Shown: positions 14,116 to 55,926 of the stretch, in pieces | How the letters are laid out: the number at the start of each line of letters is the position of its first letter | How positions within the stretch are numbered: position 1 is the first letter of the stretch | From: Anadara kagoshimensis | Taxonomy: Eukaryota; Mollusca; Bivalvia; Arcoida; Arcidae | Direction: 5' to 3' | Assembly (NCBI GenBank): GCA_021292105.1 | Contig: CM037874.1 | Coordinates: 23,123,534-23,187,533 of the forward strand | Length of the DNA stretch: 64,000 nucleotides | Notes under the pieces: generated by a model | What the model saw: only the letters and a program-made list of their open reading frames with translations | Database searches by the model: none | Told to the model about the DNA's origin: nothing | Made by a program: the position numbers and the translations under genes

Positions 14116-14193
14116 CTAACTCAGAGTAATAGCCAATATAATTGCAATCACAAGTAGTAATATTACAACACATATAATTATCATTATCAATTT
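14116..14193 (-). CDS. STX1: Syntaxin-1 terminal exon, membrane anchor
   Basis: This 78-bp coding segment (25 residues and TAG) follows the acceptor TTTACTTTCAG. It encodes KLIMIIICVVILLLVIAIIL, then AITLS and stop. It is a single hydrophobic helix of about 22 residues, as expected for the C-terminal tail anchor of syntaxin-1. Joined to either 2a or 2b it gives KARR followed by KLIM, so one Lys of the usual juxtamembrane KARRKK run is replaced by Leu. No second anchor exon was found between here and 17424. The segment was too short to stand out as an open frame and was located by phase and hydrophobicity. Confidence 0.88.
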   Translation of the reverse strand, partial: KLIMIIICVVILLLVIAIILAITLS

Positions 14194-14460: not shown

Positions 14461-15375
14461 AGGGCATCACTAGCTATGACCCAAGGTATCACAAGCTATG
14501 ACACAAGTTATCACCAGCTATGACCCAAGTTATCACCAGCTATGACCCAAGTTATCACCAGATATGACCCAAGTTATCACCAGCTATGACCCAAATTATC
14601 ACCAGATATGACCCAAGTTATCACCAGCTATGACCCAAGTAATCACCAGCTATGACCCAAGTTATCACCAGCTATGACCCAAGTTATCACCAGCTATGAC
14701 CCAAGTTATCACCAGATATAACCCAAGTTATCACCAGATATGACCAAAGTTATCACCAGCTATGGCCAAAGTTATCAACAGCTATGACCCAAGTTATCAC
14801 CAGCTATGACCCAAGTTATCACCAGCTATGACCCAAGTTATCACCAGCTATGACCCAAGTTATCACCAGCTATAACCCAAATTATCACCAGCTATGACCC
14901 AAGTTATCACCAGATATAACCCAAGTTATCACCAGCTATGACCCAAGTTATCACCAGATATAACCCAAGTTATCACCAGCTATGACCTAAGTTATCACCA
15001 GCTATGACCCAAGTTATCACCAGCTATGACCAAAGTTATCACCAGCTATGACCTAAGTTATCACCAGCTATGACCTAAGTTATCACCAGATATAACCCAA
15101 GTTATCACCAGATATAACCCAAGTTATCACCAGCTATGACCCAAGTTATCACCAGATATAACCCAAGTTATCACCAGATATGACCCAAGTTATCACCAGA
15201 TATAACCCAAGTTATCACCAGCTATGACCTAAGTTATCACCAGCTATGACCCAAGTTATCACCAGCTATGACCAAAGTTATCACCAGATATAACCCAAGT
15301 TATCACCAGATATAACCCAAGTTATCACCAGATATGACCAAAGTTATCAACAGCTATGACTAAAGTTATTAACAG
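14461..15375. repeat. 22-bp minisatellite, about 41 copies
   Basis: The tandem unit is 'cccaagttatcaccagctat' plus 'ga'. It has two main variants at the end of the unit, AGCTATGAC and AGATATAAC, arranged in mixed order. It lies in the last syntaxin intron, just upstream of the membrane-anchor exon. The seed seems to be a sequence like 'atatcagggcatcaccagct', also present at both edges. Confidence 0.95.
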
Positions 15376-16625
15376 CTATGACAAGTTGGTCAACTATGTT
15401 CATTATGCTCATTAACTAGTTAAATATTCCAAAATGATATTACTTATATCAGGGCATCACCAACTATATCCAAGCCATCACGAGCTATGACCCAAGTTAG
15501 TCACCTATGTCCATAATACTTATTTACTACATAAATATCCTTAATAATCTAACTTTTATCAAAAGCTATTACTCAAGTTACAGATTTATATTTACGCATT
15601 GCTCTCTTGGCATTTGCCAATTAAAATTTGTTCAGTTATATGCTTAGCATGCAACAGGAAGTCTGTTTATAACATCTCACCTAGTGGGGTTGTACTTGAA
15701 CTTATAAATACCAAGTGGTTGCAAAAATGTAGACAACTATCTGTTTTCAAGTAAATTGTTTCACCTAACCAGGAATAGACAATCCAAATCTTCAAATTGT
15801 ACAATAAGGGAACGCCACTAACTGAGCAATGATACACAACCATATTAACTATAAATATATGCAAATAAATTCTTTTGCATTGGGAAACTTTTAAAAGCCA
15901 GGTGCAGAAAGGTGTGGTACACTATCTTAATGAAAGACTCTAGGTGTGGTACAGAGAGTCTAACTCAAGTCACAATTATTTTAAAGTTGTAGATTCTTCA
16001 TCTATACCCCCATGATTTTTCACGTAAAATTGAAGAACTCTGTGTCATTTTGTAAGATATACTTCTGATTGGTAATTGCAAGGTTTCCATGGCAACAAAA
16101 ACACTTTAAGGACATTTAAATGCAAGGTTTCCATGGCAACCAACAACAGATTCTACAGACATTTTGAATAGTCCTTCACCTTGTATCACAACAAACATTT
16201 CTCATTGTCAAAATCAAAGAAGAAAATTCAACATAATACATTTATTTTAAAACAAATCATCTACAATGTACTGCATTCTGTTTCATGCATTATGCATCAT
16301 CACACATTTTTTTCTAGTGACAGTGAAAAGTGATAATAAATAACAGAAAAATTTATCTTTACTTTGTAACTGAAATATCTAAATCAAATGTCAACTAACA
16401 CAGTGAAGTAACCAATAGAGACTGGTAGTTCAAAGTTCAAAGGTCAAGGCTATCAAAAATAAATCTAAATTGAAATTTCAAAATAAAATAGGGGAAACTA
16501 ATAAAATGGACAAAATGTGTAAAGGACAGCTTACTAATAATAAATATGGGACATTTGGTGAATGGCAGAATCATTGCTATATCTAGTCAAAAAGTCCACA
16601 TCCATTATGTATTATTGCTTGACCT

Positions 16626-17423: not shown

Positions 17424-17534
17424 CCTCCTAGCTTTACTTTGATATTTAACTGCTTTTTTAGTGTCCATTTTGGCAGTTTCTATATAATCGACAGCTTGTT
17501 CAACATTATATTCAATTCGATCTATCATTTCTCC
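17424..17534 (-). CDS. STX1: Syntaxin-1 alternative exon 2a (SNARE motif, C-terminal half)
   Basis: This 111-bp exon (37 codons, phase 0 at both ends) encodes [20 protein letters not shown], then [17 protein letters not shown]. The acceptor is TTTTCACAG and the donor GTATGTAA. It is closer to vertebrate syntaxin-1 ([24 protein letters not shown]) than exon 2b. The reading frame stays open beyond the donor, so retaining the intron would add a long unrelated tail. It joins the membrane-anchor exon at 14193 in phase 0. Confidence 0.93.
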
Positions 17535-17608
17535 CTGTGAAAATAATGAATAGAAAATGTAAAAAAAACATGCATGTGCGAATGCTCTACCAAAATGTCC
17601 ATACATAC

Positions 17609-17719
17609 CCTCCGAGCTTTACTCTGATATTTAAGTGCCTTTTTAGTGTCTTTTACGGCACTGCCTACATACTCTTTAGCATTTTCAACATTAAATTCTA
17701 TACGATCTATCATTTCACC
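17609..17719 (-). CDS. STX1: Syntaxin-1 alternative exon 2b (SNARE motif, C-terminal half)
   Basis: This 111-bp exon (37 codons, phase 0 at both ends) encodes [20 protein letters not shown], then [17 protein letters not shown]. The acceptor is TTTTCACAG and the donor GTATGTAT. It provides layers +1 to +8 of the SNARE motif and the basic KARR before the membrane anchor. It differs from its partner at 17424-17534 mainly between EFNVE and DTKKA, which is largely the outward-facing part of the helix. The two exons are only 74 bp apart, which is very short for an intron and would favour use of one or the other. Confidence 0.9.
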
Positions 17720-17898
17720 CTGTGAAAATAAAATTATACATGCAAACTTCATCCCCCATACAACCTTTGGGTGCTGCAAAGAAATATAAAACTCACTTGG
17801 TTAGTTTTAACATTTTTTATCTATATCCAACAAAAAATACTAAGCAACATCATCCATTGTTTTTTAAAAATTATTTTAAAGATTTTTTGTATAGGCAG

Positions 17899-18594
17899 CA
17901 ATGCTTCAGATTGTCGGTGCGCCCGCACCAATCCTGCATTATTTTAAAAAATGGCGCATAACATTTGCTTTTAATGGGTCCACGTGGCGCATGGTTTTTC
18001 TTAGCCAAATTGATCGTTAATAATTTCTTCCCAAAACTACATATTCGATTCCATGGGGTTTTCCAATTTGACTTTCTATCTGGTTTTCTATCGGAAAATC
18101 TCTAGCGTCTTTGTTTATCTCATAATCAGCATATAGACAGGACTCCCGACAAGCCCCTTCTCTTCGCTCTATGCGTCCGTTATTAACATTAATATTTAAA
18201 GGGGGAGAACTTGTAATAAAACTTGATATGACCTTGGACGTTGTCGTTCATTTAATATACTAGCGGCAACCATGGCTACGAGATGCAGATGACTCTATTC
18301 ACATTTTTTAAAACAACACAAAGCGCAGAGAAGTAGATGCACATAAAATGAATCATCGAGGTGAAAGAGTTTAAAATATATCGTAAAGGTTAACAAAATA
18401 TAAATTAGCAGATGACAAGATCGCTTTTGGTGCATTAAATGAAGATGTCAGGTGCCGACTTTCACTTTCAGTCACGTGGCGTTACATTTAATTATGTGTC
18501 AAAACATGACCAACTATAACAAAAAAAGACCCCTTGTAATTGGACCTGGTGGGCCCTTGTGGCCCACTATCTGCAAAAACAATCTGAAGTGCTG
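17899..18594. mobile_element. Nonautonomous hAT-like DNA transposon
   Basis: A 696-bp element with ends CAATGCTTCAGATTGT and ACAATCTGAAGTGCTG (inverted, imperfect). It is flanked by the direct repeat AGGCAG (17893-17898 and 18595-18600). CACGTGGCG motifs sit near both ends. It has no transposase ORF and lies in the syntaxin intron upstream of exon 2b. The hAT assignment rests on the CA-start ends and is uncertain; the 6-bp match is shorter than the usual 8-bp duplication. Confidence 0.55.
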
Positions 18595-19467
18595 AGGCAG
18601 AAGAAAAAGTTTGAACTTTTAATAGATAAGTTGAAAAGTCTTTTAAAATCATGACATGATGTTCAAAACATGACTAGCGGGACTACCGTAATTGCTAGAA
18701 AATATACTTAAATTTCTAAGATCAGAGTATCAACCTGATGGCAACTACATATATAATGTAGAAAATCATAGGGATAATACTGATACTGGTTGTACTTTCT
18801 AACTTAATTCCTCAGTTTTTGAATTAACGATAATAAATGACATAAATAGTAATAGTGGCAATCTTGGATTGCATACAAACATGTGGGAAACAACTTTCAA
18901 TCTTATTAACAAATGACCTTCCATAGCCAATTTTGTTTTTTTTACAAATAGTCCCAGTTGTTTCAAAGGAGAAATCTAAAGTTTATGGATGCTTGCACCC
19001 GTGCACGCTTCACCAAGCCATGAGTACACACAGGCTTTTCTAGGTGCCCTACAAACAGCGTAGCATGTGATAGTAAAGACTTACTTAGGGTGGCATAAGA
19101 GTTTAAAATTTAACAATAACCCATGATGCTTGATCTCCGGGTGAGATATGGCATGTATTGGATATCGCAAAAAATGTAATGATTTTGGATTTTGAACTGA
19201 TTTCTACTTGGCACTTTTATATACATGTATTCATCTCAGATTTTGAAAGAACGCTAGACTTATTTGTCATATTTAGTGTAAGCTTCACATATCTTTGTTG
19301 AAATTTTAGCAGACATTGTACCTGTAGTTTTATAACCAAGCTAATTCAATCAAAGATGATTAAAATTTAGCACAAAGAGTGGTGTAATCAAAATTGAAAA
19401 AATGTTGGTGGTGCTATTGTACAATGAATATTTGAAGGTGAAAAGATTATGTGAATAATAATCATAT

Positions 19468-19500
19468 AATAATAATAATAATAATAATTATAATAATATA
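19468..19500. repeat. (TAA)n microsatellite
   Basis: AT-only trinucleotide run within otherwise featureless intron sequence (18601-19880). Confidence 0.85.
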
Positions 19501-19883
19501 AGAACCTTTTAATTGACATGATATTGAAGTTAAAGGCCTGCACCAGTACGAAGTGTGATAAATCATAAACACATAGATTTAAAAAAAAAAGCTGTTTGTA
19601 TTGGAAAATGGTGTGTAAAAATCAGCAAAAGTAGAACACCACCACCTTGTGATATACAGTGAACATCCTTACAATCTGGTGTAACAGGCAATGTAGGATT
19701 AATCCGCATTATTTGTAAACTTTCTTTCTACATCAATACACTGGCTTTCTATAGAAAAGTATATACATACTTAACTTTTCTTTAAACTTGTCTCAACTGA
19801 GCAAATAATAAGATGCCCAAGATGTAAAAGTAAAGTAATGAAAAGATGGGGTTCTCAAAATTCTCAGAGTAAAGTAGATTAAT

Positions 19884-20070
19884 GGTGATTTACACCTCAG
19901 TAAAGATTCTTTAACTTGTGTCAAAGTGGTCAGTTTTGAGATGATGAAGAAAACCTTAGTATCTGTAGAAAAATGCTGAACTATGGCAAGTGAACTGACA
20001 ATTTTCTCAGACTAAGACCTGCCAAAGTGGGATGTGAACCTAGGCTGTGACAGCCACTAGATTAAACAAG
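19884..20070 (-). mobile_element. tRNA-derived SINE, family A, degraded copy
   Basis: Shares 'tcagtaaagattcttt' and 'cctgccaaagtgggatgtga' with the other family A copies. The tRNA-like head at the high-coordinate end is decayed. Confidence 0.5.
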
Positions 20071-20607
20071 CAAATTAAGTGAGTTTCGATTTCCCCGCCA
20101 GTGGGTACTTTTCAGCCATGGAAAACGAGCAAACCAATTCCAGTTAATGATGTGCCAATCTCCCATTAATGTTGATGCTTTGCACCAAGTTTTGTAAAAT
20201 AGTGCTTCATACTTTTGGAGAATTACTCAGGACAAGAAGTGTCTGGACAGACGAAATAACAGACCTTCAAATTCAACACTCCCCTCTTTCTTTGAGAGGC
20301 GGGGGATAATAAAATAGAAAATTATATTAATATTTTAGACTTGACATAGTAACCAATCCTGTAATAAAGAATAAATTTATAACTTGATGAAAATCACAGT
20401 ATACAACTCATCTCAACTCCACTCGACTCATCGTCACAACCTTGACAGTAAAGAGGGTATGGCGAGAACATCTGAATAACTACTGAAAAGAGAGATACCT
20501 ACTGATTGTTCAATTTTTGTCTTTTGTTCGTATTCATCACATCAATGTAACAAACTGGACACTTATTTAATATAACATCATATATGTCTCAATTTACAAT
20601 AGGAAAT

Positions 20608-20872
20608 GGCCAAGTGGTACTGTGTCACAGGCTTTCGAAGTAAAGGGTTGTGGGTTTACACCTCACTCAGGACTTGAAAAATTTTTTGAGATGATTTTCA
20701 TCTCCTTCCCATACTAAAGCAATAAAAAGCACAATACTAGAATAGTCTTTTGGATAAGACTCAAAATCAAGGTCCCATGTCTCAGTGCACAGTAAAGGCA
20801 CCTCTGTAGAGTTCGAAAAAGAGTAGGCCACCTGTGGCTGCTACAGAAGACGCTTACAACTAAGTGACTGAA
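20608..20872 (+). mobile_element. tRNA-derived SINE, family B
   Basis: The plus-strand head ATGGCCAAGTGGTACTG (A-box-like) and GGGTTTACACCTC (B-box-like) is followed by the conserved body 'gtcttttggataagactc' and 'aaggtccc', which resembles a widespread mollusc SINE central domain. A related body is found near 53190. Confidence 0.6.
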
Positions 20873-21177
20873 ACAGACTGAGCAAAGTAAAAATGTAAGA
20901 ATAATATTGCAGAAAACAGTATTTGGCTTGAAATAATTTTTCTTAGATCAAATGTTTAAGTGATACCATGGCAACTTCCAATGCTAAAATTTTAGTAAAT
21001 TTCACTTGGATTGTAATTTTTTTATTGCCACCATAGCAACCGTAATTTAAATTAAGAACATATCACCTGGCAGTGTCTTCATAGGTACCATGGCTACAGC
21101 CAATCACTTTAAGTATAGATCGGGTTGTATAACTGTTACCATGACAACGACCAATCAAATTTGTTGTGCTATCTTAC

Positions 21178-21315
21178 CTGACTTTCTACCAGCATAGCCA
21201 TATCCATAAACATATCATGTAATTCTCTTATACTAGTTTCTAACTTTATAATATCATTATGTCTAGCTTCAATATCTGCTAATGTCTGTTTAGCTTGTTG
21301 TGTTTCCATTATAAT
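21178..21315 (-). CDS. STX1: Syntaxin-1 exon, N-terminal half of SNARE motif
   Basis: This 138-bp exon (46 codons, phase 0 at both ends) encodes [20 protein letters not shown], then [14 protein letters not shown] and [12 protein letters not shown]. The acceptor is TTATTTACAG and the donor GTAAGAT. The last residue, Gln, aligns with rat Q226, the central ionic ('zero') layer of the SNARE helix. The shared part therefore ends exactly at layer 0 and the rest comes from one of two alternative exons. A TIR element begins about 40 bp upstream. Confidence 0.95.
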
Positions 21316-21352
21316 CTGTAAATAATTAACAAAATATATCATTTTAACCAAG

Positions 21353-21536
21353 TACAGTCGAACCTGCCTTAAAGGTCACCTCTATATAAGGACTACCTGC
21401 TTATAAAGGCCAGTAGAATTGTATCCCAATTGTTCTTTATTCATATAATTTGGACCTGTTTATAAAAGTCACCTGCCCATTGAGGTCATTTTCACATGTT
21501 TCCTTGGGTGACCTTTATAGACAGGTTTGATTGTAT
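21353..21536. mobile_element. MITE with TA target duplication
   Basis: About 180 bp. It starts CAGTCGAACCTGCCTTAAAG, ends near CAGGTTTGATTG, and is flanked by TA. Subterminal GGTCACCT and GGTGACCT are inverted. It lies just upstream of the SNARE-motif exon. Confidence 0.65.
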
Positions 21537-21618
21537 TTTTTGGTATTTGTCAATAATGACATTTTCTCCCATGTTCAATGTATAACCTCAGACAAAAGGG
21601 CTATGAAGGCTAATGTGG

Positions 21619-21815
21619 AGTTATGACCTCAGTCAAGATTCTTTCGCTTATATTGAGGTAGACAATTCTCGATGACGGAGGAAACCAGATTTATCAGAAT
21701 ACAACTGATCTTCGGGAAGTGAACCACAAACTTTCTTACACTAGCATCTGCCCAAGTGGGATTCAAATCTAGGCAGCGAGAAGCAATGTGATGTTTAACT
21801 GCACTAAAGAGAGAT
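21619..21815 (-). mobile_element. tRNA-derived SINE, family A
   Basis: Shares 'gacctcagtcaagattcttt', 'ggaggaaaccag' and 'cacaaactttcttacact' with the other copies. B-box-like GGATTCAAATCTAGGC is on the plus strand in reverse sense. Confidence 0.55.
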
Positions 21816-22206
21816 TAAAACCACACCCGAGACTCGAATCAAGTGTACCAGTGTTTATAGCCCTGTCAGAATTTACAACCACACCTCCCATACTCTAGCC
21901 AAATCGATCTGTTTCTAGCCTTTTCAGAAAATATTACATCTATATCCCAGACCCTACCACGTCTCACCAGACCCAAGTTGATTACATCCATGATCAGACT
22001 CAAACTAAGTAGACCTGTGTTTCTACCCTACAGAAAAGATTACATCCACATCTAGACTACGGCTCAGTGGATCAGTGTTCCGAGCCCTTCCAGACCAGAG
22101 TATAAAACAGCCACTAAGTGGACCAGTGTTTCTAGTCCTGGCAGAATAGATTACAACCACAACCCAGACTCTAGGTGAATTTTTTTTTAAATACAAACTT
22201 GCTCAC

Positions 22207-22280
22207 CCCTTGTGTAAAAATGGCTGGATTTCCAGATTCTAACATATCTTCTAATTCTTCATTAGTAGTTGTTCTACCAG
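22207..22280 (-). CDS. STX1: Syntaxin-1 exon, Habc-SNARE linker
   Basis: This 74-bp exon encodes (T)[18 protein letters not shown], then AIFTQG. The acceptor is TTTACTTTAG and the donor GTGAGC after GGG. It contains the linker-helix LE pair within EELED that corresponds to the residues changed in the classic 'open' syntaxin mutant, so the closed-form switch seems intact. It enters in phase 1 from either alternative Hc exon and leaves in phase 0. Confidence 0.93.
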
Positions 22281-23924
22281 CTAAAGTAAATAGAAAAATT
22301 AATTATCTTGGTAAGATGACATTAGTTTTATATAAATACATATAGTTTGGAATTTTCCCCTAGAAAACTAAAACTGTCTCTCAAGAGACAAATATTGTGA
22401 ATATACACCTAAATTTGGTATGCAACACATTGTCTCATGTTGGTTTGCATTCATTCCAAATTTAATCAAAATCTATCTATCGAAATTGAAGATCATGGAG
22501 TGGACAATATATTGGGACAGAGAGGGTGATTCCTGTACACCCCTTAAACTTTGTTTGCAGCGGCATGATAAAAACATGTGATACAGCATAACATTTAGTC
22601 CACAGCAATGTATTCCCTTTGACATTTTTGTATCCGGGATGTAACCTAAAATTAATTTTTACATGATGTTTAATAATGAGATTTGGGGTATGTCCTTTTT
22701 TTAAAAGGCTACTTTTTATGACTTTGAACAAATTTCCATGTAAAATTAAATGTTAAGGTCGATGTAAAGTTGTTAAGCCCTGCATATAAGCCCATAAGTC
22801 ATATACTGTGACATTATTATTTTCCATGGTGTCCCAATTTTTGTGAATTTTTGATCTCATCATTTCTTCCTCTCTTTCCTAGGTGGCAGATGATCCTGAT
22901 CATTGTAACCTTCATGACACAATGTTGAGAACCCACTTTTAAACAAATGTACAATACTGGATCCCCATCACACACTCTTGGACAGTACTAAATATTGCCC
23001 TTCGCTCAAATTTAATTGGAGAAAGTTGATATTTCACTAAATATGCATAGACAAGAAAATGATTTCAACTCCAATTTCCAGAAATCATTGGAATTTTTTT
23101 AAATAGTAAGTTTTAACTGGCAATTGTACGGTTGTAATTTTAGCTTCAAAATTGTACTACTTATGCCAAAACTGTAAGGGTAGACAAGTATGGCCATACC
23201 TCATCCTAATGTTCATATGCTAAATCAATGTTAAAACTAGAAATATACGCTCTATTGCTCACTTAGTATATTCCTGCTTTTAACTTCAACCACTGACTGT
23301 AAATTTTGAAAAATAAAGTCGTAAAACAGGAAGTAGATGTCCGACAGACTTGAAATCAGTACCTGGGGTATGGGACCTCATACTGAACATGCATACACAA
23401 TTTCAAGTGGCTGTGCTTCGTAGTTGCTGAGAAAACTTTTATAAATATTTGTGTTTCAAGAGGACGGATAGACGGACAGAGGTATACTTGCATATCCCCT
23501 TTTTCTTTCGAAGCAGGGGGTATAATTACTAATATGCACTAATGTTTAAGCCATGTAACATAATTAGCACTACTCATATTCACTGTAAAAAATGAGGTTT
23601 TTATCAGTTAAGTACAGTAAGTTGGGTGCAAAATAAATTATGTTTTCAGAATTTGTTATCCATATATTTTATCATGCATATATTTTAAACATAAGTTTTC
23701 CATGCAAATATTATAAGATTCTTGTAAAGATTTAAAAAAAATATCTTGTGGTGAAAACCTTTGGTAAAAAACAGTGTGCATGTGTAAAAAATGTAAGAGA
23801 GTCAGTGTTATAATTGAAAAAAAAAGAAGATTTTAATGATACTTTTTGTATTTACATGATAATCATGTGTAGGATTTTGGTTTATAAAAAAACCAGAACC
23901 TTTCTCCTTTCTTTCCTTATTCAA
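22281..23924. other. Syntaxin intron, nothing further recognised
   Basis: Intron between the linker exon and alternative exon 1a. It contains decayed interspersed repeats without clear ends. No additional exon with splice sites in the right phase was seen. Confidence 0.5.
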
Positions 23925-24090
23925 AGTATAAACACTTCCAACATGTCAAATAGTGCCATAAGAAAACCACCAGTGACCTCCGGTAAACCCAATGACAAAC
24001 TTTCTTCCACTAGGGTTTGATCCTAGTTGATGAGAAAAGCTGAGCTCTATAGGATTGCACTTAAGAGCACTAAGCCACAAAAGCCCCGAA
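23925..24090 (-). mobile_element. tRNA-derived SINE, family A, partial
   Basis: Retains 'cttccactagggtttgatcc' and a head ending in 'gcactaagccacaaaagcc'. It stops about 190 bp from exon 1a. Confidence 0.45.
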
Positions 24091-24280
24091 AATGTAGTGG
24101 AATATATGTATCTTTATCTGTAGATAGAGCAAAGTCACTAAAATACATTTGGAATTCTGAGTAGAAAACATAAATTTACAACTGATAGTTATCCTGGCAG
24201 GCATACTGCATACACGAGCTTGCTAAAATATAAACTAGGCATTAATACTAAGAACGAAGCATACAGTCTAAATATCTTAC

Positions 24281-24389
24281 TTATTTCCAGTTGCCGTTGG
24301 ATACGTCCTTTACATCGCTCTCTGTAATCAATCTGACAGGCGTTGTAATCGTTCATTACTTCCACAAATTTACGAGATAATGTTGCGTG
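24281..24389 (-). CDS. STX1: Syntaxin-1 alternative exon 1a (Hc helix)
   Basis: This 109-bp exon encodes [19 protein letters not shown], then [17 protein letters not shown] plus one base. It is the canonical version, nearly identical to vertebrate syntaxin-1 over SRKFVEVM and [15 protein letters not shown]. The acceptor is TGTGATAG and the donor GTAAGAT. It joins the exon ending RKTQ in phase 0 and the exon starting CTGGTAGA in phase 1. It shares length and phases with 25248-25356 and lies 858 bp downstream of it in transcription order. The Hc helix packs against the SNARE motif in the closed, Munc18-bound form, so the choice of exon could alter the closed state (inference). Confidence 0.92.
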
Positions 24390-25247
24390 CTATCACAGAA
24401 ATAAAGAGAAAAAAGAAAACAAATTTATTTAAACCAAAACTCTTATAGGACGTAACTAGAAAAACTGCTAAGAAATAAGAACGTTGCTCGCTATGTGTTG
24501 TGTATGTCACTTCAAACAGTCATGTGATTTTTACCCATAATGCTTCTATTATGAAAAGGGAAGTAACCATTTCAAGACCTCAATCACCCAATTTTGACTA
24601 CTTAATTTTCAAAATCATGAATTAATAATTTTTAAAACAGTTGCATTTGAAGTTGAAGATTGTGGCTTATTAAAAAATATTTTTCCATAATACTTGATCA
24701 TCAGGTGTCTTTTTAGATCTAACATTACATTATAATAACTAAATCAAAACTTTGTTATTTTCTTTATTCATCATTGATTTTTCACCAAATCCCTTCAATG
24801 GCTTCATAACACTAAAATCTGACTAAAAGCAGTGTCATAGCTAAGTTCCCACAAATTTTAAATTATTATATTTTCACAAATTTTCTTAAACAGGTTACTT
24901 TTTGAGAGAATTTCTATGAAATTAGTAGCCAATAACAGTTTTGGCTACCAGGAATAGAAGCCTAGCAATGAATCAAAGTTTAACTGTATGTTGTTAAAAA
25001 TCAGATATATAATATCAAAATTACGAATAATCTGATTTTATAGCCATCTTCTGTTATTATAAAGAGATCAACACTAGCCGAGTAAAAGTCACAGAGAGTT
25101 GATGAAGTGACGTAACACTGCTGTGAAAATTAAAAAACTAATAATAAGATAAAATAAAACATCGTAAAAGGTAGTTCTAACAAACGTGCATAGTAGATTT
25201 AATAATATGCTTGGTGTCTGCAGCTAACTGCAGCAAGGTGGTCTTAC

Positions 25248-25356
25248 TTATTTCCATTTGTCGCTGAATGCGAGCTTTACATCCGTCCCTGTACTGTACT
25301 TGAGCTTCATTGTATTTGTTCATCTCTTCCACAAATTTACGATAAATTGTTGAATA
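25248..25356 (-). CDS. STX1: Syntaxin-1 alternative exon 1b (Hc helix)
   Basis: This 109-bp exon encodes 36 residues plus one base: [19 protein letters not shown], then [17 protein letters not shown]. The acceptor is TTTTTAG and the donor GTAAGAC. It has exactly the same length, phases and protein position as the exon at 24281-24389. Because 109 is not a multiple of three, including both would break the frame, so the two must be used mutually exclusively. It is the more divergent of the pair from vertebrate syntaxin-1: RERCKGRIQ is replaced by RDGCKARIQ. Two partial copies of its acceptor and first codons lie just upstream, at 25386-25430 and 25456-25500. Confidence 0.88.
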
Positions 25357-25540
25357 CTAAAAATTATAGCACATCACCTTTAGATTCACAAATTTACGAT
25401 AAATTGTTGAATACTAAAAAATTATAGCACATCATCTTTATTTAATGCTATCAGTTCCACAAATTTACGATAAATTGCTGAATACTAAAAAATTATAGCA
25501 CATCACCTTTATTAATGCTAGAAGTTTTTAACCAATCAAA
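25329..25540 (-). repeat. Three tandem copies of the exon 1b acceptor edge
   Basis: The acceptor and first nine or so codons of exon 1b recur twice upstream. The three copies start at about 25329 (functional), 25386 and 25456. Each extra copy has TTTTTTAG followed by TATTCAACAATTTATCG or the variant with GCA, runs through AAATTTGTG, and then diverges. The duplicates keep the splice acceptor but lack the rest of the exon. Confidence 0.85.
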
Positions 25541-26257: not shown

Positions 26258-29181
26258 AACAAGAGGCCCATGGGCCTGATACGCTCACCTGATAACTAAT
26301 GGCTAGCTGATAGATTTAAAGAAAACATAAATACTAAACCCCAATGACTTGTTTTTTTTACATCATGATAACCGTTGTATTAATACCTACAACATTCTAG
26401 TATACATGCCTATACAAAAAGTTAATAGTTTTCAAGATAATTAACCATTTCAGTATTGTTTCACATCTGTGACCTTGACCTTTGAACCCAAGACCTTTTT
26501 CTATACATCAAAATGATCGTATCGATACCTACAACATTCTAATATACATGCCTATACAAAATGTTTATAGTTTTCGAGATAATTAAACATTTCGGTATTG
26601 TTTCGCATATGTGACCTTGACCTTTAAACCCATAACCTTTTTCTATAAATCAAAATGATTGTTGTATCAATATCTACAACATTCTAATATACATGCCTAT
26701 ACAAAAAGTTTATAGTTTTGGAGATAATTAACCATTTCGGTATTGTTTTGCATCTGTGGCCTTGACCTTTGAACCCATGACCTTTTTCTATACATCAGAA
26801 TGATCATTGTATCAATACCTACAACATTCTAATATACAAGCCTATACAAAAAGTTTATAGATTTTGAGATACAGTTGAATCTCGTTATCTCGAACTCGGA
26901 TATCTCGAACTACCGGATATCTCGAACTTTTTTAAAAAGTCCGAACAAAGTTGTTCTTTATTAAACCAAAATCACTCCGGTTATCTCGAACTCGGATATC
27001 TCGAATTATCGGATATGTCGAACAATATTTTCGTCCCCTTGAATGAAAATCCTAGGAAAATTACACTCGTTAACTCGAACAAAAAATTTAGGAAAATTAA
27101 ATTTGTTAACTCGAACAAAAAATTTAGGAAAATTAATTTGTTACTCGAACAAAAAATTTTGAGAAATCAAATTTGTCAGCGCCTACAGATTTTTTGGTAG
27201 AAATAAAATAAAATAATTGACTGTCGGTCTCGTGTTGATTTTAAAATTACAATATTGCACTGACCTCCCAATTTCCTTAAGCCCTTAATTATTATCCCTT
27301 GCATAAGCAATTAAACCATCATGGGGATTAGCAGGTGTTATAATTACTGCCAAGCTGAACATGGCTTCCGAAAACGTGTGATGTGAACATTACTCAATAC
27401 AACCGGAAGCTTGGGATGATTAAAGTACACAAAGCGAAACTGGTATGGAGACCAAAGCGGACTCCACTATTTGTCGGCTAATAACAAGTAACAGATAATC
27501 TCCCGATTTTTTATATACTACATTCTCAATTATAAATGCAAATAATAAATAATGCAGCTTTTTATATCATGTTTGAATACATACGATATAGGAGAAACCG
27601 GCAATATACAGTTTGACCAGATAAAACCGAAAGCGACTTCCGGTAGGCGTGTACGAGTTACTTCCCTTTTGTTGTCGTTTTTAACATCGGTTATCTCGAA
27701 CTCCGGATAAGTCGAACTTTTTGCATTTCCCCGTCGAGTTCGAGATAACGAGAGTCAACTGTAATTAACCATTTCAGTATTGTTTTGCATCTGTGACCTT
27801 GACCTTTGAACCCATGACCTTTTTCTATACATCAAAATGATCGTTGTATCAATACCTACAACATTCTAATATACATGCCTATACAAAAAGTTTATAGTTT
27901 TCGAGATAATTAACCATTTCGGTATTGTTTCACATCTGTGACCTTGACCTTTAAACCCATGACCTTTTTCTATACATCAAAATGATCATTGTATCAATAC
28001 TTACAACATTCTAATATACATGCCTATACAAAATGTTTATAGTTTTCGAGATAATTAAACATTTTGGTATTGTTTCGCATCTGTGACCTTGACCTTTGAA
28101 CCCATGACCTTTTTCTATACATCAAAATGATCGTTGTTTCAATACTTACAACATTCTAATATACATGCCTATACAAAATGTTTATAGTTTTCGAAATAAT
28201 TAACCATTTCAGTATTGTTTCACATCTGTGACCTTGACCTTTGAACCCATGACCTTTTTCTATACATCAAAATGATCGTTGTATCAATACCTACAACATT
28301 TTAATATACATGCCTATACAAAAAGTTTATAGTTTTCGAGATAATTAACCATTTCAGTATTGTTTCACATCTGTGACCTTGACCTTTGAACCCATGACCT
28401 TTTTCTATACATCAAAATGATCATTGTATTGATACCTACAACATTCTAATATACATGCCTATACAAAAAGTTTATAGTTTTCGAGATAATTAACAATTTC
28501 GGTATTGTTTCGCATCTGTGACCTTGACCTTTGAACCCATGACCTTTTTCTATAAATCAAAATGATCGTTGTATCAATACCTACAACATTCTAATATACA
28601 TGCCTATACAAAAAGTTTATACTTTTCGAGATAATAATTATAATCAGAGGTAAAAAAAATTAGGTCACGACCTTCACAATTGACCTTGACCTCATTTTGA
28701 AGATACTAACAAGAAGATGTCAAAACTGAAAACCCCATGTCATTATCTGGTCAAATAGTCAAGTTATAACAATTTGAAGCTATTTTACGATTTTTTCAAA
28801 ATTAAACGCAAAAACGCGTAACCTATTTTTTATCCGATTTTTACAAAATGAACAAACTATAGGCTTAAGACCCTAGAGAAGCCAAATATCACATCAGATT
28901 TATTCTCCAATCAGTACTTTCGGAGAAGAAGATTTTTTAAGATTTTTGCACCCCTAGGTCACCTTGACCTAGTTATGGTAGCCATGGCAACGCCACGAAC
29001 AAATCTGAATTGCACCGGCCCATATATACTTCTGACAAAGTTTCATTAAAAACTGTCCAGTAGTTTCAGAGGAGAAGTCGAAAATAGGTGTTAACGACGC
29101 ACACACGCACACACGCACACACGCACATACACACGCTGCGCTATGCCATAAGCTCACATGACCTTCGGTCAGGTGAGCTAA
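26258..29181 (+). mobile_element. Helitron-like ('pearl'-type) nonautonomous element
   Basis: The left end is 'aagaggcccatgggcctg' followed by 'cgctcacctga'. The right end is a hairpin (GCTCACATGACC, loop TTC, GGTCAGGTGAGC) at 29152-29178 followed directly by CTAA, as in Helitron 3' ends. The core is a 145-bp tandem repeat with nine intact 'gaccttgacctt' registers (26471 to 28520). After the core comes a unique tail and an AC-rich block (29097-29130). No rolling-circle replicase is present. A pogo-like element interrupts the core at 26872-27761. Bivalve pearl elements share this layout. A second copy lies at 54545-55926. Confidence 0.65.
26872..27761. mobile_element. Pogo/Tigger-like TIR element nested in the Helitron-like core
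   Basis: An 890-bp element with inverted ends CAGTTGAATCTCGTTATCTC and GAGATAACGAGAGTCAACTG, flanked by TA on both sides. The neighbouring uninterrupted core units read GAGATAATTAACC, so the empty site and the TA duplication are confirmed inside the window. Subterminal GGATATCTCGAACT motifs repeat. There is a three-unit 36-bp internal repeat at about 27050-27165. No transposase remains. Confidence 0.8.
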
Positions 29182-32492: not shown

Positions 32493-32566
32493 TTGTGTCT
32501 TTCGTATTCTAAGATCAGCTGATGATTTGTTAGAATGCTCTTCTTGTTCTATGTTTTGTTCTATAA
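32493..32566 (-). CDS. STX1: Syntaxin-1 exon, Habc region (SIEQ...RIRKTQ)
   Basis: This 74-bp exon encodes the end of the Hb helix and the start of Hc: IEQNIEQEEHSNKSS, then ADLRIRKTQ. The upstream boundary is TTTATTTACAG before TTATAG, so the exon enters with two bases that finish a codon split with the missing upstream exon. It ends CAA, then donor GTATGT, in phase 0. The residues match the vertebrate syntaxin-1 segment closely, with RIRKTQ identical. Upstream is a 41-bp minisatellite and downstream a TC-rich tract with degenerate copies of this exon's 3' edge. Confidence 0.93.
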
Positions 32567-34689: not shown

Positions 34690-35049
34690 TACCAAATATC
34701 AGTTCAATCACTGCAAGCGTTTAGAAAAAGGTGCAGAAAATTGTTATTTAAAAAAAAACTGAAAAACCAAGGGATATGTGCTTCATAAAAATCAGCAGAA
34801 CAGAATGAAACATAAACTTAGTCTGTGTGATACTCAATGTGGTAGACTTGCATACCAATAATCAGCTCAAACGCTGAAAGCATTAAGAAATAAGTATGGA
34901 AAACTTATCTCAGACTGATGGACTGATGGGTTGGTGGGTCTAAAGCATACTCTGTCCATCTTTGTTGTGTGAGATATATAATAAAGAATTGGCATAGAAC
35001 ATGGGTGATTTCAGATCATGGTTCTGAGTGTTTAATATTCACTAAACAT

Positions 35050-36049
35050 NNNNNNNNNNNNNNNNNNNNNNNNNNNNNNNNNNNNNNNNNNNNNNNNNNN
35101 NNNNNNNNNNNNNNNNNNNNNNNNNNNNNNNNNNNNNNNNNNNNNNNNNNNNNNNNNNNNNNNNNNNNNNNNNNNNNNNNNNNNNNNNNNNNNNNNNNNN
35201 NNNNNNNNNNNNNNNNNNNNNNNNNNNNNNNNNNNNNNNNNNNNNNNNNNNNNNNNNNNNNNNNNNNNNNNNNNNNNNNNNNNNNNNNNNNNNNNNNNNN
35301 NNNNNNNNNNNNNNNNNNNNNNNNNNNNNNNNNNNNNNNNNNNNNNNNNNNNNNNNNNNNNNNNNNNNNNNNNNNNNNNNNNNNNNNNNNNNNNNNNNNN
35401 NNNNNNNNNNNNNNNNNNNNNNNNNNNNNNNNNNNNNNNNNNNNNNNNNNNNNNNNNNNNNNNNNNNNNNNNNNNNNNNNNNNNNNNNNNNNNNNNNNNN
35501 NNNNNNNNNNNNNNNNNNNNNNNNNNNNNNNNNNNNNNNNNNNNNNNNNNNNNNNNNNNNNNNNNNNNNNNNNNNNNNNNNNNNNNNNNNNNNNNNNNNN
35601 NNNNNNNNNNNNNNNNNNNNNNNNNNNNNNNNNNNNNNNNNNNNNNNNNNNNNNNNNNNNNNNNNNNNNNNNNNNNNNNNNNNNNNNNNNNNNNNNNNNN
35701 NNNNNNNNNNNNNNNNNNNNNNNNNNNNNNNNNNNNNNNNNNNNNNNNNNNNNNNNNNNNNNNNNNNNNNNNNNNNNNNNNNNNNNNNNNNNNNNNNNNN
35801 NNNNNNNNNNNNNNNNNNNNNNNNNNNNNNNNNNNNNNNNNNNNNNNNNNNNNNNNNNNNNNNNNNNNNNNNNNNNNNNNNNNNNNNNNNNNNNNNNNNN
35901 NNNNNNNNNNNNNNNNNNNNNNNNNNNNNNNNNNNNNNNNNNNNNNNNNNNNNNNNNNNNNNNNNNNNNNNNNNNNNNNNNNNNNNNNNNNNNNNNNNNN
36001 NNNNNNNNNNNNNNNNNNNNNNNNNNNNNNNNNNNNNNNNNNNNNNNNN
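35050..36049. other. Assembly gap (1000 N)
   Basis: Exactly 1000 undetermined bases, a conventional placeholder size. The missing N-terminal syntaxin exons could lie here. Confidence 1.
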
Positions 36050-44165: not shown

Positions 44166-46743
44166 TTTGTTGGCACAGGATTTTAATTCGGTTGCATTCT
44201 GTCTTCAAGAAACGCTTATTAAGGAATCCGACAATGAAGTAAAATTTCGTCATTACATACCATATCACCTTTATTCTCCTAATGCAGACAGAGCTTCAGG
44301 AGGTTCTTCTATTTTTATTCGAAATGGGATAATCTATAGTCCCTTATCTCTTAATACTAATCTCCAAGCCATTGCGTTCGCGTAACGCTACAAAAAACTA
44401 TAACATTATGCTGAATATATATTCCTCCATCATCAGCATTATCTCTCACCGACATACAGAATTTAGTTGAACAGCTACCTAAACCACTTCTTTTAGTTGG
44501 TGATTTTAATGAACACAACCCTCTTTGGGGAAGTCCGCGCCTTGATAATAAAGGCAGAATAATAGAAAACTTGATGTCTAACAATGATCTATATATATTA
44601 AATGACGGGTCTAAAACATTTCTATCTGATGCGACTGGAACTTATTCAGCTTTAGACCTGTCGCTATTAGATCCAAATTTTTTAAATGATTTTTCATGAA
44701 AAGTCCATGATGATCGTTGTGGAAGCGATCGTTTTCCAATTATATTGGAATATACATCCGGATCAAATGATCTTTCTATTCCTAGATGGAACTTTGCAAA
44801 AGCTGATTGGAATCAGTTTCGAAATCTCTGCGCGGAAAAGATTTCTATCGAGAGATTTGAAAATGAAACTGATAAAATTCAGAGTTTTACCGATGTTCTT
44901 ATTGAAATTGCTAATAACTGCATTCCTAAAACCTTTGCAAATCCTCGTATTCGTAAACCATGGTACAACGAAGAATACAAACAAGCTAGGAAAAGTCGAA
45001 AACAAGTCGAAAGACAATTTAATAAGTCTCCTACACAAAACAATTTGCAGTTAGTCCGTTCATTTCGAGCAAAGGCTCGAAGAACAGCTAAAAAGTGTAG
45101 GAGAGATTCTTGGAGAAAATATGTCTCTAAGATCAATTCTCGCACTCCATTAAATAAAGTTTGGAATATGGTGCGCAAAAGAAAAGGCAAAGGTTCTTTA
45201 GATTCTGTTAAACATCTTAAAATAAATGATACAATTTTAACATCTGAAAAAGATACTTCAAACAAAATAGCTGAGACGATATCTAAAAATTCGTCATGCC
45301 ACTCCAAAATGCTCTTTCGAAGGCACATGATACGGCAGTTGGTCCTGATGATGTGCACTATCAACTCCTTAAACATTTACCTTCTTCTTGTCTTTCTACT
45401 CTGTTAGATATATTTAATGATATTTGGCAGAGTGATAATTTTCCATCATTTTGGCAAAAAGCTGTCATTATTCCTATTCCAAAGCCAGTAAAAGGATCAC
45501 TCTGATCCATCTAACTATAGGCCTATTGCCTTAACTAGCTGCGTTTGTAAAACCATGGAAAGGATGATCAATAATAGACTCGTTTATTATCTTGAGTCTA
45601 ACAATCTCCTCTCGAATATTCAGTGTGGTTTTAGGCGTAACAGAAGTACTGTGGATCACTTATTTCGCATTGAATCATTTATTAAAAATGCCTTTATAAA
45701 TAAACAACATGCGGTCTCTATATTCTTTGACCTAGAAAAGGCATATGATACCACTTGGAAATATGGTATTCTTAAAGATCTTTATGATATGGGTCTTAGG
45801 GGTCATACTCCTAATTTTATTAAAAACTTTCTCGAAAATCGAGAATTCAAAGTTCGGTTGGGGTCAACCTTCTCTGATGTCTTCGATCAAGAGATGGGTG
45901 TCCCGCAAGGTAGTATTTAATCTGTAACTCTTTTTAGCATTAAAATAAATAGCTTAGCTAAAGTTTTAAACAATAGCATAGATGGATCTCTCTTTGTTGA
46001 TGACTTTGGCATCTCCTGTAGAGGGACACATATGCATGCTATTGAAAGGCAACTTCAACTTTGCCTCAACAAAATACAAAAATGGTCATTAGAAAACGGG
46101 TTTAAGTTTTCAAAAACTAAAATTTCCTGTATCCATTTCTGCAATAAACGAAAAATGCATAATGACCCTGAACTATCAATGACAGTATTATTAAAGTCGT
46201 AAAAGAAGCTAAGTTTTTAGGAATCTTATTTGATTCCAAATTATCTTTTATTCCCCATATTAAAAGTCTCAAGGCTAAATGTCTTAAGGCATTGGATATT
46301 TTAAAGGTTTTATCCAATACACACTGGGGTGGTGATCAACCAACGTTACTTCATTTATACAGGTCACTTATTAGATCTAAACTGGATTACGGGTCTATTA
46401 TTTATGGATCTGCCCGTAAATCATATTTAAAAACCTTGATACAATTCATCACCAAGGTCTACGAATATGTTTGAAAGCTTTTAAAACGTCTCCAATTGAT
46501 AGTTTATACGTGGAAGCTTATGAACCTCCACTGCATTTAAGGTGTACTAAATTAACTCTGCAATATGCCACAAAATTATTTGCAAATCCATCAAATCCGG
46601 CATTTCACTGTGTTTTTAATCCTCCTTATCTAGAGCTTCACAATAAAAAGGTTAATGCTAGTGCACCTTTAGGAATACGTTTAAAGCCACATTTAGAGGA
46701 ATGTAATTTAAGACTAGATCTTATTAAAAAACACAAAGAGGTA

Positions 46744-54544: not shown

Positions 54545-55926
54545 ACAGTTCAGGCTCAGATGAGCTATTGCAATCTATCAGCGTCCGTCGTGTGTAAACT
54601 TTACATTTTAATCTTCTCCTCCGAAACTACTGGGGGCAAATTTGATGAAACTTGGCGATTATCATGCCTGGGTAACAGCCTTTAAAAATTGTGTTTAGGG
54701 TTTGGCCACGTCCAACAAGATAAAAAAGACAAAAAAATCTTCTCTGAAACCAAAAGGTGCAGGCAAATTTTGATTGGTTATTTAGATTCAGCATACCTGG
54801 GAACATTAAAATTGTTTTTTTTTTCATGAAAATTGAGCGAAAAATAGGTTACACGTTTTTTGCGTAAAATTATGTAATTTTGAAAAGGAGACATTTATTG
54901 TTATAACTCAATAACGGCTAAAAATAATTGTATGGAGTTTTCACTGTTGATCTTGTCTTGCTATTTTCTTCCAAAAGATGTCAAAGGTCAAGGGCATGTT
55001 CCTGTTTTTTACCTTTGATAAAAAATGCTATTTTTTAAACATTTTAGATGCTAATGGCATGGGATTTTCAGTTAATTGTAGGTATTGACATGACGGTCAT
55101 TTTGATACATTGATCAAGGTCATGAGTTCAAAGGTCAAGGTCAAGGATGCACAACTATTACCGTTACAGTTGATTATCTGCAAAACTATTAACTTTTTGT
55201 ATAGGCATACATATTAGAATATTGAAGGTAATGACACAATGATAATTTTGATATATAGATAAAGGTCATGGGTTTAAAGGTCAAGGTCACAGATGCGAAA
55301 GAATACCGAAATAGTTAACTATTTAGAAAAGTATTAACTTTTTGTATAGACATGTATACTAGAATATTGTAGGAATTGATTTAACGATCACTTTGATATA
55401 TAGATTTAGGACATAGATTCAAAAGTCAAGGTCACAAATGTGGAAGAATGCCAAAATGGGTAATCATCTCAAAAACTATAAAAAAAACTTTGTATAAACA
55501 TGTATATCAGAATATTGTAGGAGTTGATTTAACAATCATTTTGATATATAGATTAAGGTCATGGGTTTAAAGGTCAAGGTTACAGATGGGAAAAGATACT
55601 GAAATGGTTAATTATCTCGAAAACTATTAACGTTTTGTATAGGCATGTATATTCGAAAATTGTAGGTAATGGCCTAGATGAAGGTCATAATTTTATACTA
55701 TTGTTTTTACTTTTTTAGCTGCTATAAATAATGTATTGTAGCTAGACTATATATATATTATATGTAGCATTCTCGGGACAAGGTATGATTAATTTGCAAA
55801 AATCTTTACATTTAATTCTGCCTTACTGCTGAAAATAAGGAGTTGTTAAATGTTATTGACCATTGAACCTCTGCATGAGATATGTACTTAGCCTCAGGTG
55901 AGCGTTAAGGCCCATGGGCTTGTTAA
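54545..55926 (-). mobile_element. Helitron-like element, second copy
   Basis: Minus orientation relative to 26258-29181. It begins 'caggctcagatgagctattg' (degenerate 3' hairpin region) with 'agcgtccgtcgtg', and ends 'ctcaggtgagcgttaaggcc' and 'catgggcttgtt'. Four or five diverged core units carry 'aaaggtcaaggtcac'. Confidence 0.65.

Follow-up and report, generated by a model that had tools for sequence, protein, structure and literature searches.

The minus strand of the window, i.e., the whole 64-kb stretch of Anadara kagoshimensis DNA analysed here, carries a gene of the syntaxin-1 type. Syntaxin-1 drives nerve-signal release and is among the most constrained of the synaptic proteins. The most upstream exon recognised is exon 5 (32493..32566, on the minus strand as are all the exons below; 74 bp), which ends in IEQNIEQEEHSNKSSADLRIRKTQ and is the upstream neighbour of the first pair of alternative exons; it was located by tblastn to rat and fly syntaxin, and its start was taken from the splice sites (32565 in some of the computations). 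The first pair consists of exon 1a (25248..25356, 109 bp), encoding a divergent variant of Hc, and exon 1b (24281..24389, 109 bp), encoding the canonical Hc. Exon 7 (22207..22280, 74 bp), which encodes the linker and is common to all forms, is followed by exon 8 (21178..21315, 138 bp), which encodes the N-terminal half of the SNARE motif and ends with VESQ, aligned with the zero-layer glutamine Q226 of rat. The second pair is composed of exon 2a (17609..17719, 111 bp) with a divergent C-terminal SNARE half and exon 2b (17424..17534, 111 bp) with the canonical one, and the intron between them (17535..17608) spans 74 bp. All four alternative exons possess an AG acceptor and a GT donor, and the coordinates, lengths, and 74-bp spacing that the preliminary description had given for them were all correct. 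The exon numbers 5, 7, and 8 are those of the vertebrate numbering. From exon 5 to the transmembrane exon, successive exons are separated by 7136, 858, 2000, 891, 3458, 74, and 3230 bp.

The transmembrane exon (14116..14193) encodes the anchor KLIMIIICVVILLLVIAIILAITLS and then a stop codon, with little sequence after the anchor; its tblastn match is weak (E 0.11), and it was chosen by its acceptor, hydrophobicity, and stop. Fourteen candidates passed the filter between position 17424 and the start of the window, and no second syntaxin-like transmembrane exon was found there, the other 13 being not syntaxin-like by eye. A linked switch of the transmembrane exon in the manner of STX3 was thus not encountered in the window, where one syntaxin-like transmembrane exon lies downstream. 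A 22-bp tandem repeat of 41.7 copies (14466-15382) is also present in the intron that separates exon 2b from the transmembrane exon. Toward the N terminus, tblastn found no exons for Ha/Hb and the N-terminal region within the 64-kb window, which includes 1000 Ns at approximately 35040-36040.

All four alternative exons match rat or fly syntaxin with an E value of 1e-9 or better in tblastn. When the exons were joined, furthermore, the form with 1b and 2b aligned to rat syntaxin-1A over all of the 144 residues given. The Pfam profile Syntaxin (PF00804) scored 88.0 bits for the 1b+2b form and 79.1 bits for the 1a+2a form, with the profile covered from its position 73 onward as the upstream exons are absent, and the SNARE profile (PF05739) scored 68.9 and 69.1 bits, respectively. 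By-eye counts gave 44/46 identical residues between exon 8 and PDB entry 1l4a and 23/24 between exon 5 and PDB entry 1s94; both entries are named s-syntaxin, which we take to be from squid (Loligo). Searches for relatives in contigs of viruses (11 pattern matches) and of prokaryote genomes (15 pattern matches) confirmed none, and no match to Rfam was obtained at the gathering scores. Elsewhere in the window, a reverse transcriptase fragment is present at 45492-45917 on the plus strand (Pfam RVT_1, 69 bits; nine other open frames tested alongside had no Pfam match), and 145-bp tandem repeats with similar consensus units occur at 26374-26871, 27762-28635, and 55075-55666, the third of which is apparently in the opposite orientation (by eye).

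The two pairs alter separate parts of the protein. Exons 1a and 1b correspond to residues 120-155 of rat syntaxin, namely the distal part of Hc as far as the linker, where the available text of PMC9892835 places Habc at residues 29-144 and the linker at 156-187. The earlier reading of these 109-bp exons as alternatives for Hc is upheld. The two copies of this pair are 61% identical in protein and 72% in DNA, differ at 14 of the 36 residues, and have the same net charge (K+R-D-E) of +2. As to the residues L165/E166, which we regard as the open/closed switch, their position falls in exon 7 by rat numbering, and the idea that exon 1a alters this site was found to be wrong. Exons 2a and 2b, in turn, encode residues 227-263, the half of the SNARE motif past the zero-layer Q, with identities of 73% in protein and 80% in DNA, 10 differences in 37 residues, and net charges of +3 (2a) and +1 (2b). 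One of these 10 differences (position 244, I/V) is on a core layer; the core is hence nearly unchanged, and it is the other faces of the fusion helix that are altered. The description of 2a/2b as alternative C-terminal SNARE halves accordingly holds for the segment encoded and is to be tempered as to the core. The copies detect each other by blastn within the window with E values of 2e-14 (pair 1) and 9.9e-25 (pair 2), by which chance is not a sensible explanation of the similarity. Judged from the identity to rat syntaxin-1A, 1b (31/36) and 2b (32/37) are the copies nearest to it, and 1a (22/36) and 2a (29/37) are the divergent ones.

Both copies of each pair look maintained. The dN/dS values between the copies are 0.24/1.08 (NG86) and 0.23/1.18 (ML) in pair 1 and 0.18/0.47 (NG86) and 0.16/0.92 (ML) in pair 2. 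We also simulated the neutral drift of one copy up to the observed DNA divergence, which tests the decay of one copy but not exclusive splicing; an equally conservative and stop-free outcome was obtained in 70/20000 and 29/20000 runs for pair 1, with either copy taken as neutral, and in 44/20000 and 49/20000 runs for pair 2. The upstream flanks (-60 to -21) match at 9 of 40 positions in each pair and the downstream flanks at 13/50 and 14/50; by these counts, the similarity of the flanking introns does not exceed chance once the splice signals are set aside, which suggests that the exons have been conserved since an old duplication. The fate of an unselected copy would be exemplified by exon 5: five decayed pieces of this exon are present at 32435-31806 (minus strand) amid AG repeats after the real exon, and they are 78-95% identical over 20-50 aligned positions, none of the matches covering the whole exon.

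Mutually exclusive exons are predicted when neighbouring exons are homologous, similar in length, and in the same reading frame with compatible splice sites, as described in the accessible portion of PMC3228551. In both pairs of this gene, the exons are adjacent, equal in length, phase-matched, and homologous, their splice sites are intact, and stop codons are absent; this agreement with the features listed there supports their prediction as mutually exclusive exons. Indeed, an open product of 169 residues from exon 1 to the stop is obtained from each of the four combinations with one exon per pair, so that the four isoforms proposed in the preliminary description are formally possible. In pair 1, joining 1a to 1b leads to a stop at the seventh codon past the junction, in accord with the earlier claim that double use breaks the frame, and skipping both exons also leads to stops. 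In pair 2, both double inclusion and double skipping keep the frame. The best branch-point match in the 74-bp intron is nonetheless TTTAC, whose A is nucleotide 49 of the intron and thus some 48 nt past the donor (the other matches are 12 and 3 nt from the acceptor), and a distance below 50 bp is the steric criterion for exclusive splicing in the part of PMC5740500 available. The proposal that the 74-bp spacing blocks double use of pair 2 is thus plausible but borderline. Given the stops in pair 1 and the short distance from the donor to the branch point in pair 2, exclusivity may be secured differently in each pair; it is from such sequence features that we infer the exclusive use of each pair and its regulation.

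Several other means of regulation were looked for. When the donors were compared by eye with the U12 consensus, all seven read GTAAGA, GTATGT, or GTGAGC, and incompatibility between U2 and U12 sites was ruled out. In a crude, ungapped scan of complementarity for docker-selector pairing, all 10 exon-intron combinations were in the null range, and even the best value was attained by 7 of 100 resampled introns. As raw counts, the flanking introns contain 8 and 12 arm pairs of inverted repeats, with arms of 14-28 nt and 70-93% complementarity. TGCATG, a motif of the Rbfox type, precedes exon 2a by 19 nt and exon 2b by 34 nt, the latter copy being at 17574-17569 within the 74-bp intron. About 1% of the minus-strand sites have a TGCATG ending 40 nt or less upstream, and the motif is not enriched in the window (30 versus 32 expected). 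The motif was picked after looking, and the flanks of 2a and 2b may be related; TGCATG beside these exons is hence a lead. Three more copies of TGCATG are found in the intron after exon 1b (23388-23706, minus strand). Also, the acceptor of exon 1a with the first 27-30 nt of the exon recurs in two further near-identical copies upstream (25484-25387, minus strand; 71 and 57 bp apart in turn). Splicing to the acceptor copy at 25413 would extend the exon by 57 nt that close with an in-frame stop, while that at 25484 would shift the frame.

The age of the duplications was examined by using s-syntaxin, which is known here as protein chains, with 1s94 and 1l4a assumed to be from the same transcript. 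The Hc segment of 1s94 is equally identical to 1a and 1b (26/36 each), and at the 14 positions differing between the two exons, it agrees with 1a at six, with 1b at six, and with neither at two. Among the derived residues of 1s94, i.e., those different from both rat and fly, five are common to 1a (Y120, I123, D143, A147, and M153) and two to 1b (133 and 139). In the SNARE half, 1l4a is identical to 2b at 34/36 residues, and at the 10 positions differing between 2a and 2b, it agrees with 2b at eight and with 2a at none. Three topologies were then compared for each exon, with 36 sites each. For exon 1, squid grouped with 1a was the best by 9 lnL units; the topology with 1a and 1b together was not rejected (p-AU 0.07 and p-KH 0.07), AU (0.02) rejected that with 1b and squid together while KH (0.052) did not, and SH rejected neither. 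For exon 2, squid grouped with 2b was the best by 8.2 lnL units, and the others had p-AU of 0.004-0.005 and KH of 0.0499. Omission of the fly sequence left the order of the topologies unchanged, with p-AU 0.04 and KH 0.11 for the exon-2 alternatives. Taken together, the groupings of squid with 1a and with 2b suggest that both duplications probably predate the divergence of cephalopods and bivalves and that the 1a-type sequence is expressed, for which we consider the evidence fair but not conclusive; the assignment of s-syntaxin as a form of 1a type in Hc and of 2b type in the SNARE half is supported but not proven.

These observations need to be weighed against other explanations of the same exons. 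One copy of each pair might be a dying or unused exon, with the protein made from 1b and 2b only. Indeed, rat is less similar to 1a and 2a than to the other two exons, and 1a has the fewest pyrimidines before its acceptor among the seven exons scored (10/17 versus 11-13), an acceptor that is also preceded by recent tandem copies. Given nonetheless that 1a and 2a are free of stops and length changes, have low dN/dS, and were matched in no more than 70 of 20000 neutral runs, that s-syntaxin bears residues of the 1a type, and that the decayed pieces of exon 5 have quite another look, we regard this explanation as very improbable. A duplication that is recent and confined to this lineage, with the likeness of 1a to s-syntaxin resulting from convergence, appears unlikely as well. 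In its favour, the topology uniting 1a and 1b is not rejected (p-AU 0.07), s-syntaxin is no more identical to 1a than to 1b, and the codons of pair 2 are unsaturated. Among the conserved residues of pair 2, the same codon is used at 20/26, where saturation predicts 13.1 (P 0.004); this speaks for either gene conversion or a duplication of lesser age. The corresponding number for pair 1 (14/21 against 10.9, P 0.10) is compatible with saturation, however, and the five derived residues shared with 1a versus two with 1b, the flanks devoid of similarity, and the exon-2 tree all speak against a recent origin.

Pair 2 might also not be strictly exclusive, and mRNAs might include both exons, adding 37 residues to the SNARE region, or skip both. 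The frame would be kept in either event, and introns near 74 bp are spliced in other invertebrates; the location of the best branch-point match, some 48 nt past the donor, is nonetheless unfavourable to joining 2a with 2b, and an insertion of 37 residues shifts the heptad register and should disable the fusion helix. We thus consider such a relaxed use of pair 2 improbable.

In terms of known systems, the closest parallel to pair 2 is vertebrate STX3, in which exons 1-8 are shared and alternatives from exon 9 onward change half of the SNARE domain, while no variation of Hc is reported in the available text (PMC8263458). As in STX3 with its exons 9A/9B (syntaxin 3A/3B), half of the SNARE motif is encoded here by alternative exons, 2a/2b covering residues 227-263; in STX3, however, exons 10 and 11 and hence the anchor also switch as far as described there, whereas one anchor exon was found in the window. 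The STX3 sequences align with the same 37 residues as pair 2. Against them, 2a is identical to STX3A and STX3B at 20/37 and 23/37, and 2b at 23/37 and 25/37, respectively; 2a is thus no closer to either than 2b is, and a separate origin of pair 2 and the STX3 exons is likely. Also, the Hc segment of STX3 is as close to 1a (23/36) as that of rat is (22/36), and there is no sign of a shared origin.

In Caenorhabditis elegans, the syntaxin-1 orthologue unc-64 also has alternative exons, 8a and 8b, and the choice between them depends on the cell type and is governed by the CELF protein UNC-75; its forms A and B, however, differ in the C-terminal membrane anchor and not in Hc or the SNARE half, according to the part of PMC4946901 available. 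SNAP-25, a partner SNARE, has exons 5a/5b that were duplicated in tandem and are used in a mutually exclusive manner, but it is another protein with one pair, and its duplication is placed in early bony fish in the text available (PMC2581893). Among the matches listed from the open-licence literature, we recognised neither alternative Hc exons in a syntaxin nor mutually exclusive exons in a molluscan syntaxin, which is weak evidence of absence, and the terms "STX" and "SNAP25" do not appear in the main text of PMC9741552. The gene would belong to a known kind, namely SNARE genes with exons duplicated in tandem and used in a mutually exclusive manner; here there are two such positions, the Hc one of which was not met in the literature searched.

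In conclusion, the anatomy, frames, and splice sites of the gene, as well as the signs that both copies are maintained, can be read directly from the DNA, and the explanation in which we place high confidence is that of a molluscan-type syntaxin-1 with a tandem duplication of each of two exons, where neither copy was lost and where one of 1a/1b and one of 2a/2b enter each mRNA. The first choice would exchange the distal part of the Hc helix, ending where the linker that controls the opening of the protein begins, and the second would exchange the half of the SNARE helix nearer to the membrane, with most of the changes off the core layers; the linker, the first SNARE half, and, within the window, one membrane anchor would be common to all forms. 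A frameshift would keep pair 1 exclusive, while a short distance from the donor to the branch point would do so for pair 2, and the resulting forms may adjust the closed/open state or the binding of partners from one type of secretory cell to another. More tentatively, and with somewhat less than even confidence, we propose that molluscs have had a two-position combinatorial syntaxin-1 since before the split of bivalves and cephalopods, with a switch in Hc and an independently arisen switch in the SNARE half at the exon that is varied in STX3; the neuronal syntaxin of squid seen in the crystal structures would then be 1a+2b, one of the four forms, and the vertebrate-like 1b form would serve in other secretory cells or release modes. 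The squid crystal structures would, in that event, appear to show a 1a-type form, and pair 2 would add one more instance of this SNARE exon becoming alternative in a separate animal lineage. If the two swaps are made separately, the gene would offer natural paired variants for asking which part of syntaxin-1 sets the readiness for release and which sets fusion.
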